Positions 24,066 through 43,013 of a stretch of DNA of 43,809 bases are shown in pieces (the stretch's first letter is position 1; every line of letters begins with the position of its first letter). Source of the stretch: Campylobacterales bacterium. GTDB lineage: Bacteria > Campylobacterota > Campylobacteria > Campylobacterales > Sulfurospirillaceae. The notes below the pieces were generated by a model, which saw only the letters and a program-made list of their open reading frames with translations, was not told where the DNA came from and searched no databases. The position numbers and the translations under genes were made by a program. Location of the stretch: the NCBI GenBank assembly GCA_016930915.1, contig JAFGFU010000010.1, positions 1-43,809 of the forward strand, read 5' to 3'.

Positions 24066-24836
24066 CTAAGTGCACGTAACGCGACCGTGTTCAACCTTTA
24101 TTTTTCCTAAACACTCATACTCAAAAACAGTATCGCCAAACTTTTCTACGGCATCATGATAAAGTGGTTGCAAGGCACAATAATTTAAAAATTCATCTTT
24201 ACATGTAAACGTATTGACACCAAATTTTTCCACAAATGCATCTATATCATAAATAGCCGTAGCCAATCCTTTTGCAAGCAATAAAGAAGTCCCCTCAGAC
24301 TCACCCAAACGATGGGGTAACACGTAAATGGGTTTGCCCATTTTTAAAGCAAATTCAACGCTGTGCATCGTGCCACTTTTAAGATCCGCTTGTGTAACAA
24401 TGAGCACATCTCCAAGAGCGACTACAAGCTCATTTCGTTTGGGAAAATTCCATTTTGTTGAGGGTTTTCCTGCTTCAAATTGGCTCAAAACCAATCCCTC
24501 TTTTTCGATACTTTCAATCAGAGTTGAATGAAGCGTAGGATAACGAATATCCAATCCTGTACCTGCAACCATAATGGTATTATTAAAGCCTGCTCCATGA
24601 TGTACTAATCCATCTACCCCCTGTGCACCACCACTTACAAGACAAATACCTGCAAAAGAGAGTTTATGTGCTAAAAGTTGGGTGAATGTTTTCGTATAGG
24701 AAATGGGATGGCGAGTACCTACTATCGAAATTTTAGAGCGCTTTAAAAGGGCAGGATTTCCAAGATAATAAAGGATAGAGGGGTAAGATTTCATACGTTC
24801 CAATTCAGGAATATGAAAATCTACCGTTTTAATCAT
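24066..24836 (-). CDS. dprA: DNA-processing protein DprA (short form)
   Basis: This 256-residue Rossmann-fold protein loads RecA onto incoming single-stranded DNA in natural transformation. It has ISIVGTRHPISYT (about 36-48), LVSGGAQGVDGLVHHGA (about 66-82), the GTGLDIRYPTLHSTL loop and SGTMHSVEFALKMGKPIYVLPHRLGESEGTS (about 154-184). It lacks the C-terminal winged helix of longer DprAs, as in Campylobacter and Helicobacter. It overlaps the upstream deacetylase stop by one base. Its presence suggests competence. Confidence 0.94.
   Translation of the reverse strand: MIKTVDFHIPELERMKSYPSILYYLGNPALLKRSKISIVGTRHPISYTKTFTQLLAHKLSFAGICLVSGGAQGVDGLVHHGAGFNNTIMVAGTGLDIRYPTLHSTLIESIEKEGLVLSQFEAGKPSTKWNFPKRNELVVALGDVLIVTQADLKSGTMHSVEFALKMGKPIYVLPHRLGESEGTSLLLAKGLATAIYDIDAFVEKFGVNTFTCKDEFLNYCALQPLYHDAVEKFGDTVFEYECLGKIKVEHGRVTCT
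24198..24209. repeat. TTTACATGTAAA palindrome, perfect copy
   Basis: Inside dprA near its 3' end, read as F-T-C-K (NTFTCKDE). Confidence 0.9.
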
Positions 24837-25975
24837 TATAGCTCTTTTAGGTAGACCATCTCCACACCCTCTAAAAGTGCTTTTGAGTCTCTTAAAACCT
24901 CTAATGTATTTTTGTGTGGATGACCAATAGCAATAGCATACCCATGTTTTTTGGCTTTCGAAACAGCCTCTTTGAGTTGCTTTTGAATAGCAGTTTTTTC
25001 CAATGAGTTATCTAAAAAAATATCACGTGAATATAAAAACATATTATACTTTTTAGCGACCTGTGGTGCTTTAGAATTTCCAATAGTACGACTATCCACA
25101 AAACTTAAATTATGATCTTTCATAACTTTGATTAAACGATCCATAGCACCATAATCTGCTGTAAAATAGCCTCCAGTGTGATTATTATAATAGACAATAT
25201 GAGGAAACCACCCCTTAATACGTTTAATTCTTTTTTCAATCACTTCAATTGAATCCGTGGTATTTAAGGTATCTTCTTCAGGACGAGAGTAATACTTTGC
25301 TTCCAAAGGAAGATGCACCATAGCAAAAGGGAACTCATGCGATAATCGTACCGTTTCAGGATGTCCTTTTGTGGGTGGAAAAAATGCGGGTGTTACCTTA
25401 TAAGGAATTTCCTTCATCATCCGTGCTTGCCAAGGGAAAGAGACATCATCAATAATAATGGCTAATTTAGGAGTTGTACCTGATGGATATTTTTTACGAA
25501 CCACATCATGCGGTTTTGCTTTTTCTCCACTCTCTTTAAGACTTTGTTGATACTCATGCACCTCTGAAAGTTCCTGTTTTTTTGAAGAATTTTCTTCAAG
25601 AACAACCAAAGGTTGAGAACTATTCTCTTCAAAAACTCTTGGTTCAATGGCAGGAATAACCGTAGGTTGTTGCTTTGAAAGGTTGCTCTCAGGTAAAGGA
25701 GGCAAAGAAGATTGACGTAATTTTTCATCCTCAAGCATTTTTTTCATTTTTTGCATTAAGACATCTGTCGAAACAACACTTTTTTCATTCAAAGGTGTAA
25801 CAACATGAGGACGGACTAACGCATGAGTTATATACCAATAAGCACCCATTCCAAAGGCTAAAAGCAGTATAAAAACGATAATCCATACACTATACTGTTT
25901 TAAATTAGATGAGGCTTTTTTTCTAGTGGGAGCTATCTTAGGCTTGCTCTGTTTTTTTCGTGTTTTTTTTACCAT
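24836..25975 (-). CDS. Divergent polysaccharide deacetylase (YibQ/DUF610 family)
   Basis: This 379-residue protein has a lysine-rich N-terminus, one membrane anchor (about 30-50), a long low-complexity periplasmic linker rich in Glu/Ser/Pro (about 65-165), and a C-terminal divergent polysaccharide deacetylase domain (about 168-379). That domain has LAIIIDDVSFPW, AFFPPTKGHPE, MVHLPLEAKYYSRPEEDTL, YYNNHTGGYFT and IAIGHPHKNTL. The family has a carbohydrate-esterase-4-like fold; its substrate is not established. It lies between minE and dprA, a cell-division and DNA-uptake neighbourhood seen in Campylobacter. Confidence 0.87.
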   Translation of the reverse strand: MVKKTRKKQSKPKIAPTRKKASSNLKQYSVWIIVFILLLAFGMGAYWYITHALVRPHVVTPLNEKSVVSTDVLMQKMKKMLEDEKLRQSSLPPLPESNLSKQQPTVIPAIEPRVFEENSSQPLVVLEENSSKKQELSEVHEYQQSLKESGEKAKPHDVVRKKYPSGTTPKLAIIIDDVSFPWQARMMKEIPYKVTPAFFPPTKGHPETVRLSHEFPFAMVHLPLEAKYYSRPEEDTLNTTDSIEVIEKRIKRIKGWFPHIVYYNNHTGGYFTADYGAMDRLIKVMKDHNLSFVDSRTIGNSKAPQVAKKYNMFLYSRDIFLDNSLEKTAIQKQLKEAVSKAKKHGYAIAIGHPHKNTLEVLRDSKALLEGVEMVYLKEL

Positions 25976-37076: not shown

Positions 37077-40000
37077 ATGTATACGCTATTTCGTTTTTTT
37101 CTAATAATAATCTTTTTTAATACTTTTATGTTTGCGGTAGCAACATATACTTCTGGTTCTAATGCTACACAACTTGCTACTGCTATACAAGGAGAGGGAT
37201 TAACCATAACAAATCCTGTTTTAAGACGGGGAAATAGCAATCAAGCAGGAACATTTTCAAATGGAATAGCAGGAGCCAACCTTCAAGTTAATCAAGGTAT
37301 TATTCTTACGACTATGAGTGTTGCCGAATCGTTTACAAGTAATAATAGCATACAACGTACCGTTGATAACCCTGACACCTATCAAGATGCTGATTTACGT
37401 GCAATTGACACACTTGCACGATATGACACTATTATTTTTGAATTTGATGTTACACTAGACTCTAACACCAGACTTCTTCTGGTTGATTATCAATTTGCAT
37501 CAGAAGAATATCATGAGTATGTAGGCTCAAGATATAACGACGCTTTTGGTTTTTTTATTTCAGGAGGAGATTTAAACCAAACCTATAACATTGCACGTGT
37601 TGTTGATAGTAATGTTCAAATTACAACAGAAAATATCCAAAATTATGCTACCGTCACCGTTAATAATGTCAACAATGGTAGTGTCGGTTACTACAATGAC
37701 TCCACCCCAGAAATTCTTACAAATTCAGCCTATTTTATTGATAATAATCAAAATAATGAGGGAGGAACTTCTCCTGTTATTGTAGAATATGATGGTCTTA
37801 CAAAACGACTACAAGCTGCCATTGACAATCTAACGCCTGGCGTTACCTACCATTTTAAAATGGCAATTGCAGATACTGGAGACTCTCAGCTAGATACGGG
37901 AGTTTTTGTTTCAAAGATAGTCGGTGTAAGAGAGCCTGTTTTTTGTTACGACTATGCGTACCATCAAAATAAGCGCTATTTTACACAGAATAATGACGGG
38001 ACATCTCAGCCTTACATTCAAGGAACGATTATTCCAAATGAAGATATCAATGTTTCACTTTACATCCGTAACGAAGAGACATCTGATGTTTTAGCAAAAA
38101 ACATTACCCTTGATATTCAAGATATTAACACAACACAAGCTATTTATACATCCGAGAGTGTTTTTGTTATTAATTATGGAGAAATCCTTCCTACACATAT
38201 TTCAGATGGGGCATTAACCTCAACGAGCAATTCTGACGTTATTGGTATACCCATCAACAATCTTGGTGACCAACAATCTGCCTATGCCTACTACTCACTC
38301 ACGCCTCAAAACAGTATATCAGATATCAATATTTCTTTAAATGCTTATTTTAACTACTCTGTTACTTTTGATATTGGTGGTGGTATGACCCTGAATAAAT
38401 CATACCGTACCAAACTAGGCAGTAATTCTCTTCCAATGTGTTCAGGTGATAACACACGCTATGAACCTAGCTGGGGAAGCTTTAATGTTGATGCCAAAGG
38501 TATTTATACTGCTTCCAATCCAAAATTCAATCTTCCTACCCAAGTCGTGCGTAGAGCAGGAGGGTTTCTTGTCACAGCACACGATGCTAATAGTACGCCT
38601 GTTCCTTATGTTGACGAACTAAAAGCATCCACTGTTGTTGGTGTTGAACTAATTGATGCAGGAAAATTTCACAGTACCAAAGCAAGCTGTGATGAGCCTT
38701 CTAGTGCTATTACTGAACGTGTTTGGATTCCGTTTGTTGATGCAACAGGAACAAAATCACAAGTTGATTTTACAACAGCGCTTCAAAATGCTATTGATGA
38801 GGGTACGATTTCTATTACGAATATTAAAGATTACTTCAATGAAGCTCGTAAAAATACCGCTTTTAGAATACAAGTCAATGAACTCAACGATGATAATAAT
38901 ACAGTTATTCAGTACCAATATAATGCAGCAACAAAAAAATATGTTATCACTAATTTTACAGATTTAGTTCAAGTCTACGGTACATGTAAACAGCCTGTAC
39001 GTAAATTTCCGTATGGACACAATAATACAAGCACAACCATGCAGGTAGCAGAAGCATGTGGAAATGCAGGGAGCACAGGTGTTGATTTTTTTACACTCAG
39101 TAAATGTAACGAATGTATTTTAGGCTACAACACTGTCTACATCTGTTCACGGGATAATTTTGCTACACGCCCTGAGAGTTTCAACATAAAACTAAGTGAC
39201 TTAAACCAAACCAATAAAATACAAAAAGTACGTTTTGCCGATGATAGAACGGGTGTTGTCACAACGGGTGAGCCAAATTCTGCTCCAGTACATATCGCTA
39301 CTGGGTATAGTTACGGATTTGATATCAATGCAACAACCCATGACGACAATAATAACTCATCAGGCTATATAGCATTTTTCACTACATCGTCGACCAACGA
39401 TAGGAATATCTCTTTTAACTGGAACCCTTCAATCATTAACCCCTCTTTATGCAATGACACAACGAGTAAATCACTCACCTTCAGTATGGTTAATGGTACC
39501 GTATCAAGTGAAGCAAACATTAGCAATGTCGGAGAATACCTTTTAGGTATGATTGATACAGAATGGACGGTTGTGGATAACAATCTTTCTCGTATGAGCC
39601 ACCATAAATCTGTCAAAATAAATAATACAACTTATAATGTAAGCAATTATTTTGTGGGTTCAGGCAATGCACTTGATTGTCTTAGTAGTAGTGCGATTGT
39701 GCAAGGAACAAGCACACTCCCTTCTATTTCAGGAAGCTCTTTGATACGTATTAATGGTTGTTGGATTAGCAGTGAACATAACAATACCGATGAAAACCTC
39801 AAATACCGTGATTATAATATTACAGCACATCCTTATCATTTTTTAATGCCCATTATTCCCTCACATGGCACGAGTGAAGACACGAACTTTACCGCTGCCT
39901 GGGTTTATATGAATAATTTAAATGATACGAATGATCTAACTAAAATTGCTGATATTAATGAGTCCATGCATTTTAGAGGTGATATTATTGCTGCAGGTCA

Positions 40001-40931
40001 TGACAATACTACCATGACAAACTTTGTTAAAGGATGCTACGCCAAAGATGTCAATCTTACCTTAGATCATAACTTTTCAAGCGTACCGCCAGTGGCATAC
40101 AACTATCGACTTTTTGATCTTAACAATAGTAATGAGGTTATTAGTGTAGTTCCTCCTCAAACAGAAAGTCCTGGTCTTGCTAGTGCAATAGAAATTTTAG
40201 ATGATGGCAATTTCACAAAAGATCTTATTGGTGCTGCTCGTATTAACCTTAATTTAAATTTTGATAGGAACCTTTCGTTACCTATTAATCCCATTATCGT
40301 CACATATAAGAGTTTAGATGTACAATGTAAAAATGATGCGGATAACAATTGTACCATGCAAGCTGATTTGAAAAGCAATCACACTACTGAGGGTAATTTA
40401 ACTATGGAAGATAATTTAACTATGGAAGATACAAATCTTACCCATTATTACGGTCGTGTTTTTTCGACTGATTATAAAGGAGAAAGCCCCATTGTAACAA
40501 CGATTCGTTATGAAGTGTATTGTGACCAAAATTGTAATCCTGATGATTTTAATATTACAGTAGTACAAAGTCCAACTTCTCTTCGATGGTATCAAAATAC
40601 TTTACATGTAAATGATGATGGCAATGTGACAACCAATGGATTTACCTCTGTTGGTACGACATTAATTAATAATGCAAACGCCGAAACATCAGGAAATATT
40701 GCCGATGGAATTGAAAACAATACGTTAAGCAATGCATTTGCTCCTTACACCGACCGTATTCAAATGCAACCCTCTTCATGGCTTTTGCATAACCTCTACA
40801 ACCCAAATGCGACTACCAATGATTTTAATGTAGAGTTTATTCAACGTGGAAATTGGGCAGGACAAGGGCAACTAGGAGAAACCGTTGATGTCAATACCTC
40901 AACACGAACGAATCGTAGGATGGAGTGGTAA
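37077..40931 (+). CDS. Exported choice-of-anchor-L / MshQ-like surface protein, sequon-rich
   Basis: This 1284-residue protein begins with a signal peptide (hydrophobic 5-20, likely cut after MFA). Residues about 25-285 match the choice-of-anchor L domain: ATQLATAIQGEGLTITNP, QGIILTTMS, the acidic FEFDVTL, YQFASEEYHEYVGSRYNDAFGFFISG and PGVTYHFKMAIADTGD. Near 676-760, CNECILGYNTVYICSRDNFATRPESF followed by GYSYGFDINATTHD resembles the DUF6701/MshQ-type domain of pilus-linked proteins (similarity by eye). There are 16 cysteines, and 28 bacterial N-glycosylation sequons D/E-x-N-x-S/T, most in the C-terminal two thirds. No membrane anchor, LPxTG or autotransporter end is seen. AAGGAG precedes the ATG. 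Its stop overlaps the first pseudopilin start by one base (TAATG), implying a joint function with the three pseudopilins. Probably a pilus-tip or surface adhesin; the role is inferred. Confidence 0.8.
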   Translation: MYTLFRFFLIIIFFNTFMFAVATYTSGSNATQLATAIQGEGLTITNPVLRRGNSNQAGTFSNGIAGANLQVNQGIILTTMSVAESFTSNNSIQRTVDNPDTYQDADLRAIDTLARYDTIIFEFDVTLDSNTRLLLVDYQFASEEYHEYVGSRYNDAFGFFISGGDLNQTYNIARVVDSNVQITTENIQNYATVTVNNVNNGSVGYYNDSTPEILTNSAYFIDNNQNNEGGTSPVIVEYDGLTKRLQAAIDNLTPGVTYHFKMAIADTGDSQLDTGVFVSKIVGVREPVFCYDYAYHQNKRYFTQNNDGTSQPYIQGTIIPNEDINVSLYIRNEETSDVLAKNITLDIQDINTTQAIYTSESVFVINYGEILPTHISDGALTSTSNSDVIGIPINNLGDQQSAYAYYSLTPQNSISDINISLNAYFNYSVTFDIGGGMTLNKSYRTKLGSNSLPMCSGDNTRYEPSWGSFNVDAKGIYTASNPKFNLPTQVVRRAGGFLVTAHDANSTPVPYVDELKASTVVGVELIDAGKFHSTKASCDEPSSAITERVWIPFVDATGTKSQVDFTTALQNAIDEGTISITNIKDYFNEARKNTAFRIQVNELNDDNNTVIQYQYNAATKKYVITNFTDLVQVYGTCKQPVRKFPYGHNNTSTTMQVAEACGNAGSTGVDFFTLSKCNECILGYNTVYICSRDNFATRPESFNIKLSDLNQTNKIQKVRFADDRTGVVTTGEPNSAPVHIATGYSYGFDINATTHDDNNNSSGYIAFFTTSSTNDRNISFNWNPSIINPSLCNDTTSKSLTFSMVNGTVSSEANISNVGEYLLGMIDTEWTVVDNNLSRMSHHKSVKINNTTYNVSNYFVGSGNALDCLSSSAIVQGTSTLPSISGSSLIRINGCWISSEHNNTDENLKYRDYNITAHPYHFLMPIIPSHGTSEDTNFTAAWVYMNNLNDTNDLTKIADINESMHFRGDIIAAGHDNTTMTNFVKGCYAKDVNLTLDHNFSSVPPVAYNYRLFDLNNSNEVISVVPPQTESPGLASAIEILDDGNFTKDLIGAARINLNLNFDRNLSLPINPIIVTYKSLDVQCKNDADNNCTMQADLKSNHTTEGNLTMEDNLTMEDTNLTHYYGRVFSTDYKGESPIVTTIRYEVYCDQNCNPDDFNITVVQSPTSLRWYQNTLHVNDDGNVTTNGFTSVGTTLINNANAETSGNIADGIENNTLSNAFAPYTDRIQMQPSSWLLHNLYNPNATTNDFNVEFIQRGNWAGQGQLGETVDVNTSTRTNRRMEW
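38979..38990. repeat. Degenerate copy (10/12) of the TTTACATGTAAA palindrome
   Basis: GGTACATGTAAA in the large surface-protein gene, read as G-T-C-K. Confidence 0.5.
40394..40429 (+). repeat. Tandem duplication of an 18-base unit
   Basis: AATTTAACTATGGAAGAT occurs twice with no base change, encoding NLTMED twice (about residues 1107-1118) and followed by a third NLT. Each unit adds a glycosylation sequon. Confidence 0.92.
40611..40622. repeat. TTTACATGTAAA palindrome, perfect copy
   Basis: In the large surface-protein gene, read as L-H-V-N (NTLHVNDD). Confidence 0.9.
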
Positions 40932-41602
40932 TGCGTTTAGGTATGTCCATGATAGAACTAGTTATTTCCATCGTCGTTATGGGTATTGTAGTGATGAGTT
41001 TACCCTTGATTCTCACACAAGTACAAAATAACAATGCTTTTGCTCTTCAACAAGAGGCTATTTTAGCGGCAAAAACGAAAATAGGAAATATCCTCACCCA
41101 TGAATGGGATGATGCAAGTTATAGTGTTGCAGCTGGTAGTTCTTTTGTTTTAGATACAGCAAATGGAGATAGTGAGCTAAACCCAATGGCGGGAACGCCA
41201 AGAAGAGTTGGTCATATAGATACTGATTATCGCAGAAAATTTTTTCCTGTACCAACCAATGCTACCAATATTGCGACCCATGGTACGAGTGACGTCGATA
41301 TGTTTCACAACAAAAATATCGCTCTGAGTGTTGCACCCAATGGAGAAGGGGCTGGAGCACTGAGTTATATTTTCAATCTTAGATTAGACCCAACTATCGT
41401 CTATATAAGCGATACTGCAACCTACAGCAATGATCCTCTGACCTTTACGTTTGGGGTAAATGCCGCAGCAGGAACGACCAATATTAAACGCATTGCAGTT
41501 CAAGTACGCGATACGGACGCAAACACCCTTATCACAACGCTTCGAGCCTTTACATGTAACATTGGAGAGTCTCCTTCACTTCCTTCAAGGCCTTATCGAT
41601 GA
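40931..41602 (+). CDS. Minor pseudopilin, prepilin-type N-terminus (PilV/MshO-region type)
   Basis: This 223-residue protein has a very short prepilin leader, MRLG, then M-S-M-I-E5-L and a hydrophobic helix (about 5-27): cleavage after Gly4 puts Glu at +5, as needed for pilin assembly. The rest is a polar domain with one cysteine near the C-terminus. The ATG at 40931 fits the leader and overlaps the previous stop; the GTG at 40925 would add two residues. It overlaps the next gene by four bases. It contains no D/E-x-N-x-S/T sequon. It is likely a minor pilin priming or capping a type IV pilus or type II-like pseudopilus; no assembly ATPase or prepilin peptidase lies in the window. Confidence 0.82.
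   Translation: MRLGMSMIELVISIVVMGIVVMSLPLILTQVQNNNAFALQQEAILAAKTKIGNILTHEWDDASYSVAAGSSFVLDTANGDSELNPMAGTPRRVGHIDTDYRRKFFPVPTNATNIATHGTSDVDMFHNKNIALSVAPNGEGAGALSYIFNLRLDPTIVYISDTATYSNDPLTFTFGVNAAAGTTNIKRIAVQVRDTDANTLITTLRAFTCNIGESPSLPSRPYR
41549..41560. repeat. Near copy (11/12) of the TTTACATGTAAA palindrome
   Basis: TTTACATGTAAC in the first pseudopilin gene, read as F-T-C-N (AFTCNIG); it supplies the only cysteine of that protein. Confidence 0.75.
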
Positions 41603-42552
41603 AAAAACGCTCCGCTTTTACATTAATTGAATTGGTTATGGTGATGGTTGTTTTTGGTATTGTCGCAGGTATTGGTGCAGATATTATTGCGAGTCTTTAT
41701 GAAAACTATTTACGAACACGTGCGATTAATCACCTGCAAAGTCAAACTGAAATCACCTTAGAGCAGATTGCCAAACGACTACAGTACCGTGTTAAAGATA
41801 GTGTTCGTGCGAGTAATAATAACGGAGGAGCATGGACAGCTCTTCCTGGTGCAACGGCTGGTTTTAACATCATCGAATGGATAGGTGTGAGCAATGAGAG
41901 TCTACTCGGTGAAAATGGTCTGCCTGGTTGGAGCGGGTTAATCGATATGGAAAGTAATGAAACGCTTTTAGCAAATCGAACCCTTGAAACACCTGGAAGC
42001 AGACTCGATTATGCGAGGGATACCATCTTTGAATTAACATCAGGTTACGCCAATGGTGCTGTTGATATGAACGATGCTGATGGCAAACTCCCCGCACTGA
42101 TTTTTAAAGGGCCTAAAGCTTCAACGGCAACATTAGCCTACGATGTGGATAATTATTACTCGCAAGGTGGCAATAACTACACCGTAAGAGTTGCTAAAGT
42201 TGCAGGTACGAATACCCGTTTAGTCATTCCCGCTGATGATAACCTGACCGATTTTAATGGAGATGGTTTTGGCGACCTTTTTGAGCACTACGTCCTCTCT
42301 CACAGCGCTTACGCTCTTGTTCCTGTAGGTACAGCCAATGATTTCAACTTAACACTTCGATTTAATTACCAACCATGGAACGGAGAAAACTATGATGCAG
42401 GCGACACACCCTCTTTTGTCCTTGCTGAAAATGTAAGTACCTTTAGAATTCGTCAAGATGGTGATGTCATTCGCATCAAACTCTGCATTCACGACAACAA
42501 TCAAAGCGGTGATTTTGATTTTAGTGCGTGTAAAGAAAAGGTGATTTACTGA
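41599..42552 (+). CDS. Minor pseudopilin, PilW-like
   Basis: This 317-residue protein has leader MKKRSA and mature start F-T-L-I-E5-L followed by a hydrophobic helix (about 7-30). The residue before the cut is Ala rather than the usual Gly, which prepilin peptidases of this phylum appear to tolerate since such leaders are common there. Size and position second in the set recall PilW/MshO. The body is Asn/Asp/Gly rich, with four D/E-x-N-x-S/T sequons (ESNET, DDNLT, DFNLT, DNNQS). It begins four bases before the previous stop, and its own last base is the first base of the next start. Confidence 0.85.
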   Translation: MKKRSAFTLIELVMVMVVFGIVAGIGADIIASLYENYLRTRAINHLQSQTEITLEQIAKRLQYRVKDSVRASNNNGGAWTALPGATAGFNIIEWIGVSNESLLGENGLPGWSGLIDMESNETLLANRTLETPGSRLDYARDTIFELTSGYANGAVDMNDADGKLPALIFKGPKASTATLAYDVDNYYSQGGNNYTVRVAKVAGTNTRLVIPADDNLTDFNGDGFGDLFEHYVLSHSAYALVPVGTANDFNLTLRFNYQPWNGENYDAGDTPSFVLAENVSTFRIRQDGDVIRIKLCIHDNNQSGDFDFSACKEKVIY

Positions 42553-43013
42553 TGCGTAGCGGATTTTCTTTGATTACAGCGATTATTTTTATCGTTTTGG
42601 TGGCAACACTCTCAATGCTAGCGCTCTCACTTTCGAGCTTTACAACCAAACAAACGAGTGATCTTTTTCTTCGTGAACAAGCGGAACTTCTGCTTCAAAG
42701 CGGTACTGAATTTGCTCTTTTAGCCATCAGTGGGCATGAAATTAACGCTGCCAATGGTTGTCTTAATCAGATAAATTCGCAATACCCAGAAGCAGGTGCG
42801 AATGCTATTTTTGATATCAATGTGACCATTCATTACATGGGAAATGGACTCAATGCCGCCTCTGGAGGCAATTGTAATCTCTTAAGTGATATCGTTGATA
42901 CGAATGAATCCAATGTCACCGTTATCATTGATACGATTGTGGAAACGACCCCTGATCATAACATCTCCACTGAGCCGATTCGTCTGCACCGTCGCACCAT
43001 TCAAAAGCCTTAA
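42552..43013 (+). CDS. Minor pseudopilin, PilX/MshP/GspK-like, lacking Glu5
   Basis: This 153-residue protein has leader MRSG and mature start F-S-L-I-T5-A, then a hydrophobic helix (about 8-30). Threonine stands at +5 where other pilins have Glu; GspK/PilX-type tip subunits share this loss, which fits a tip position because no later subunit neutralises it. The mature domain carries two cysteines and four glycosylation sequons (DINVT, DTNES, ESNVT, DHNIS) in about 120 residues. It ends the cassette; hpf follows 89 bases later with its own promoter. Confidence 0.8.
   Translation: MRSGFSLITAIIFIVLVATLSMLALSLSSFTTKQTSDLFLREQAELLLQSGTEFALLAISGHEINAANGCLNQINSQYPEAGANAIFDINVTIHYMGNGLNAASGGNCNLLSDIVDTNESNVTVIIDTIVETTPDHNISTEPIRLHRRTIQKP

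Follow-up and report, generated by a model that had tools for sequence, protein, structure and literature searches.

The MSHA cluster of Vibrio ends with its large gene, which encodes MshQ, and PglB of Campylobacter jejuni prefers Asp to Glu and Thr to Ser in its acceptor sequon. MshQ has been described as a putative MSHA adhesin, the loss of which lowers piliation and pilus production (PMC7096442). Arg331 of PglB has a proposed role in acceptor-site selection, and is kept also in relaxed enzymes (PMC4894442). Among other filament systems, PilY1 and minor pilins form a priming complex in Pseudomonas and Myxococcus (PMC7541494), and in Archaea AglB is responsible for the N-glycosylation of pilins and S-layers (PMC2952790). 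A literature search covering largely open-access papers returned nothing relevant on N-glycosylated MSHA or type IV pili in the present group or on an excess of sequons in Campylobacterota, and no description of a pilus adhesin saturated with PglB-type sequons.

The window analysed here, a stretch of 43,809 nucleotides from a Campylobacterales bacterium (GCA_016930915.1, contig JAFGFU010000010.1), carries a cassette of one large gene and three minor-pilin-like genes. The organism belongs to the genus Sulfurospirillum, as judged from a match of 86% identity to a named MAG. From its sequence it is best read as an MSHA-type cluster of minor pilins and tip adhesin, with MshQ-, MshD-, MshO- and MshP-like members. 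We consider it probable that these proteins form a pilus tip complex in which the adhesin and two minor pilins are modified by PglB, and that selection has favored a dense glycan coat.

A probable cassette of MSHA type

The large gene (37077..40931, + strand, as for all cassette features below) encodes an MshQ-like exported protein of 1284 residues with an N-terminal signal sequence, a putative pilus-tip adhesin. Residues 32–279 (37170..37913) form a choice-of-anchor L domain, matching NCBIfam NF038133 with 178 bits against a cut-off of 27 (E 1.4e-52). Residues 942–1284 (39900..40928), delimited by alignments and an AlphaFold model, make up a conserved C-terminal region of two predicted beta-sandwich domains, which ends in NRRMEW. 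The large reading frame overlaps the first of the pilin genes, which encodes a PilV/MshD-like minor pilin of 225 residues (40925..41602) with a prepilin motif and a TIGR02532 score of 15.6 bits, just below the cut-off. It is followed by genes for a PilW/MshO-like minor pilin of 317 residues (41599..42552; PF07963, E 6.6e-07) and a PilX/MshP-like minor pilin of 153 residues (42552..43013), which has a weak match to GspK (E 3e-4) and an N-terminus and position that are kept in relatives. Scans for promoters and terminators gave values near shuffle level and were uninformative.

Homologous cassettes were found in most genomes of the GTDB family. Their large proteins carry variable N-terminal modules on a common C-terminal region, which often ends in the same NRRMEW; the modules are choice-of-anchor L, Calx-beta, or DUF11 arrays with a concanavalin-like module within the family, and Big_9/cadherin-like in other families. 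The gene order large-PilV-PilW-PilX is common to nearly all relatives, so that the large gene adjoins MSHA-type minor pilins, as is expected of an mshQ gene. DUF6701 (PF20419), a region known from MshQ, scored above its gathering threshold of 27 in homologues (L073, 31.4; L148, 32.2; L141, 29.7) and was detected at E ≤ 0.01 in 10 of 45 members, the window's own protein giving no direct match. An MSHA-type biogenesis locus lies on contig C7 of the window's genome (G000). It includes an MshL equivalog (TIGR02519, 271.4 bits against a cut-off of 250.2), an AAA ATPase, a TPR-like protein, an extension ATPase and a GspF-like protein. Because homologues are related to DUF6701, the genome has an MSHA locus, and the description of MshQ fits, the cassette can be read as encoding an MSHA-type pilus tip complex; the preliminary description had suggested a fibre or adhesin, which is thereby made more specific. 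The large protein would be located at the tip by analogy with MshQ and PilY1. Membership in the PilY1 family itself was rejected, since a Pfam search of the large protein gave no match at E ≤ 1, and so neither a PilY1/Neisseria PilC family domain nor a beta-propeller.

The AlphaFold model of the C-terminal region had a pLDDT of 76 and a pTM of 0.74. With this model Foldseek found nothing at E ≤ 0.001, and the best VIA-align result (Z 8.0 over 95 residues of a beta-galactosidase domain) reflects a common arrangement only; a PDB sequence search with the profile of the region gave only chance matches to antibodies. The model is compatible with a long extracellular protein that glycans would protect and solubilize. 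In the complete genome of a sibling (G014), two prepilin genes (L104, 16447-17416, - strand) may encode major pilins; one product has a single extended sequon and the other has two, and given these the pilus shaft may be glycosylated too.

Sequon excess and conservation

The large protein has 28 D/E-x-N-x-S/T sequons, their Asn codons running from 37575 to 40893, against 2.67 ± 1.62 expected, and none of 1000 shuffles reached 28. Four are present in the PilW-like protein (ESNET, DDNLT, DFNLT and DNNQS; 0.36 expected) and four in the PilX-like protein (DINVT, DTNES, ESNVT and DHNIS, of which DTNES/ESNVT overlap; 0.23 expected), and there is none in Lon, a BamD-like protein, FliW or an HPF-like protein, which served as controls from the window. 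The preliminary description had counted the 28, the two sets of four and the zero in cytoplasmic Lon correctly, with an expectation for the large protein of about two. It had also called the cassette saturated; the PilV-like protein, which it did not mention, has no extended sequon, and the cassette as a whole is therefore not saturated. Elsewhere in the window, a membrane-anchored protein of 379 residues (24836-25975, - strand) has four extended sequons against about 0.1 expected; three are found in the related protein of the sibling (L110, 18842-19984).

The excess in the cassette is not chance. Asp or Glu at -2 and Ser or Thr at +2 of Asn co-occur (odds ratio 9.1, p 8e-8), so composition alone does not account for it, and the reversed motif S/T-x-N-x-D/E, used as a control, was flat. 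After D/E-x-N, Thr was enriched 4.1-fold and Ser 3.3-fold, and no other residue was, including Asp, Asn and Gly, which rules out Ca2+-binding loops as the source of the motif. Thirteen of the sequons lie in the C-terminal 343 residues, eight in the preceding 220 and one in the choice-of-anchor L domain. Three are in a repeated stretch, EGNLTMEDNLTMEDTNLT (40389..40442), of which the sibling has one repeat, and hence one sequon, less; one of the 28 thus arises from an 18-bp repeat missing in the sibling.

The window's own family supplied 29 homologues of the large protein, which together had 749 sequons against about 90 expected, with an excess in every one, and those of five further PglB-bearing families of Campylobacterales (f4, f6, f7, f17 and f19) showed a 7.6- to 10.4-fold excess. 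Two of the three minor pilins are enriched in nearly all cassettes. Within the sequons of the 29 proteins Asp and Glu stood at 641:108, compared to 2927:1238 overall, and Thr and Ser at 459:290, compared to 4910:3893 overall. Against an orthologue with 60% identity (L054), sequon Asn was kept at 0.88 and other Asn at 0.51 (p 4e-4), and sequon Asp at 0.81 and other Asp/Glu at 0.44 (p 5e-4). At 50% identity the positions turn over, Ser/Thr of sequons being conserved no better than other Ser/Thr, yet the counts hold at 19–23, as expected if number or density is selected more than exact position. Two homologues of 4000 residues (L073 and L078) have 67 and 73 sequons; in the former, DUF11 is repeated 19 times and accompanied by a concanavalin-like domain. 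In one genome the large protein occurs twice, the second copy (L063, G019 C2:712500-722500) with no prepilins detected directly downstream.

PglB and the sequon-rich proteins

Outside the cassette, the proteome background was estimated from sampled stretches of about 0.4–0.6 Mb per lineage, with exported proteins recognized by a crude hydropathy rule. In these stretches exported proteins of the window's genus had 47 sequons against 20.8 expected (2.3-fold, odds ratio 2.05, p 2e-4), those of two other PglB-bearing genomes 37 against 19.9 (G283; 1.9-fold, p 0.002) and 24 against 16.8 (G139; 1.4-fold, p 0.09), and those of a PglB-less genome (G069) 22 against 19.9 (1.1-fold, odds ratio 1.00). Cytoplasmic proteins were not enriched in any sampled lineage. 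Selection for PglB-type sequons in the tip adhesin, as proposed in the preliminary description, is thus well supported at the sequence level by the orthologues, by conservation, by the preference for Asp over Glu and Thr over Ser, and by a signal confined to exported proteins in PglB-bearing genomes.

The C-terminal region of the cassette is present in 246 of 399 Campylobacterales genomes, and PF02516 in 296. All of the roughly 78 cassette-bearing genomes of ten or fewer contigs have PF02516 when the lists are compared by hand, a raw number that shared ancestry weakens. Sequon density in orthologues was above chance in f1, f4, f6, f7, f17, f19 and f22, but at chance level in f11, a family termed Campylobacter-like here by inference from family structure. 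Two f11 cassettes (L159 and L160) in the presence of PglB have 0 sequons against 2.2 expected and 2 against 1.3; exported proteins in the one f11 genome sampled are nonetheless enriched. The presence of PglB is thus not enough to impose the pattern, and was rejected as a sufficient cause of the excess. In two f22 genomes, both drafts, the cassettes (L141, L142, L145 and L146) are enriched 4- to 7-fold and PglB was detected by neither of two models; this may reflect either gaps in the drafts or a different oligosaccharyltransferase.

The window's own assembly gave no pglB match with either PF02516 or a PglB-specific model, and PglB is present in 22 of the 23 other genomes of the genus. In the sibling G014, whose large protein is 94% identical, the gene order is prmA-cheY-hisA-hisH-pglB. 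Contig C34 of the window's genome (20,701 bp) matches the sibling to its last bases, just short of this block, and contig C13 starts on the far side, about 30.6 kb on in the sibling (G014 C1:1791885-1822504). Missing along with pglB are prmA, cheY, hisA and hisH, the search for hisA yielding only a weaker relative, presumably hisF, and pglB is not among the sugar-gene pieces on contigs C4 and C12. Since the neighboring genes are missing together with pglB, and the contigs end within and resume beyond the syntenic block, a true loss was rejected in favor of an assembly gap, and the pglB of this species most likely sits in the unassembled stretch. A pglB search had been proposed as a check on the preliminary description; it found no gene in the assembly, and its expected place is the gap between C34 and C13. 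To trust this absence would have been to dismiss the glycosylation reading wrongly. The genome was scored 99% complete with a stretch of about 30 kb containing its glycan locus unassembled, and such loci are easily mistaken for gene losses. Similarly, a genome without PglB by PF02516 (G106) proved to have a C-terminal pglB fragment when the second model was used, which indicates that absences of pglB in drafts are unreliable. The alignment of the sibling PglB with that of C. lari (5ogl; E 2e-159) extends from end to end, and the WWDYG motif and the equivalent of Arg331 are kept. Since relaxed enzymes retain this Arg too, we infer, rather than read off, the specificity of the sibling enzyme.

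Several other explanations can be weighed against this evidence. A structural or metal-binding role for the motif, capping strands or holding Ca2+ in beta-sandwich repeats of the adhesin without glycosylation, would suit a beta-rich protein with relatives that have Calx-beta and cadherin-like modules. It is highly unlikely in our estimation: the enrichment after D/E-x-N is restricted to Ser and Thr to the exclusion of Asp, Asn and Gly; the excess is seen also in two pilins of another fold and, weakly, in exported proteins generally; neither cytoplasmic proteins nor the PglB-less genome show it; and the f11 homologues have kept the C-terminal region but not the motif. The sequons in the C-terminal model, moreover, occur in strands and loops as well as in short helices. 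Very little probability attaches to the view that the sequons are relics of local duplication or codon bias, rarely or never used, in a strain that has truly lost pglB. The one sequon from the 18-bp repeat and the lack of pglB in the assembly are in accord with it, but the 28 sites span 1100 residues in differing sequence contexts, Asn and Asp stand above background conservation at 60% identity with counts held at 50%, and the missing block contains hisA, hisH, cheY and prmA as well, which speaks for a gap.

Finally, the large protein might be a glycosylated secreted or surface adhesin unrelated to pili, with minor pilins belonging to a type II-like secretion system. GspK is the best model for the PilX-like protein, and choice-of-anchor domains are frequent in surface-anchored proteins. 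Set against these are the overlap of the large ORF with the first pilin gene, the gene order kept in nearly all relatives, the MSHA-specific secretin in the genome and DUF6701 in homologues, which together make this quite improbable. In the preferred reading, that of a PglB-modified MSHA-type tip complex, the adhesin and minor pilins would be exported by Sec, and in the periplasm PglB would act on D/E-x-N-x-S/T sites of the adhesin and of two minor pilins before the tip is assembled. The assembled complex would then be driven out through MshL by an MshE-like ATPase. Use of the cassette sites by PglB is likely. Long-term selection would keep about 15–35 sites per adhesin, and more than 60 in the two homologues of 4000 residues, giving a pilus end dense in glycans if the sites are occupied. 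The benefit would most likely be to shield a long extracellular beta-sandwich protein from proteases and aggregation.

Relation to known systems

The role of general N-glycosylation in bacteria outside Campylobacter is a question for which this MshQ-like class offers a concrete client. Dozens of selected PglB sites are kept across many environmental families of Campylobacterales; Campylobacter-like relatives either lost them or never acquired them, which provides a natural contrast. If the reading is true, the MSHA tip would be a naturally hyper-glycosylated bacterial adhesin. A further idea, which we put forward tentatively and hold to be unlikely, is that the tip is a principal and ancient N-glycosylation client in Campylobacterales, that its coating is a main reason why environmental species keep PglB, and that Campylobacter-like lineages have shed the sites.

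With the MSHA/MshQ clusters of Vibrio, Shewanella and Aeromonas the cassette shares a large variable exported protein, a DUF6701-related C-terminus in homologues, PilV/W/X-type minor pilins and an MSHA biogenesis locus. It differs in that the large gene comes first here and last there, and in the choice-of-anchor L module, the saturation with PglB sequons and the lack of a direct DUF6701 match in the window's protein. The PglB system of C. jejuni and C. lari has the same sequon with the same preferences, a restriction to exported proteins, and an enzyme that aligns throughout, including Arg331; here 28 candidate sites are on one protein, and the neighbors of the sibling pglB are a Wzz-like gene and a large cluster of sugar-nucleotide genes. 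In the PilY1 complex, too, a large protein resembling an adhesin is encoded alongside minor pilins, but the beta-propeller family to which PilY1 belongs was not detected here. In Archaea an STT3-family enzyme also places N-glycans on surface filaments, at a shorter N-x-S/T sequon and on main subunits as opposed to a tip adhesin. Glycosylation by PglB and MSHA pili are each known separately; the apparent concentration of PglB-type N-glycosylation on a pilus tip is what we judge to be new.
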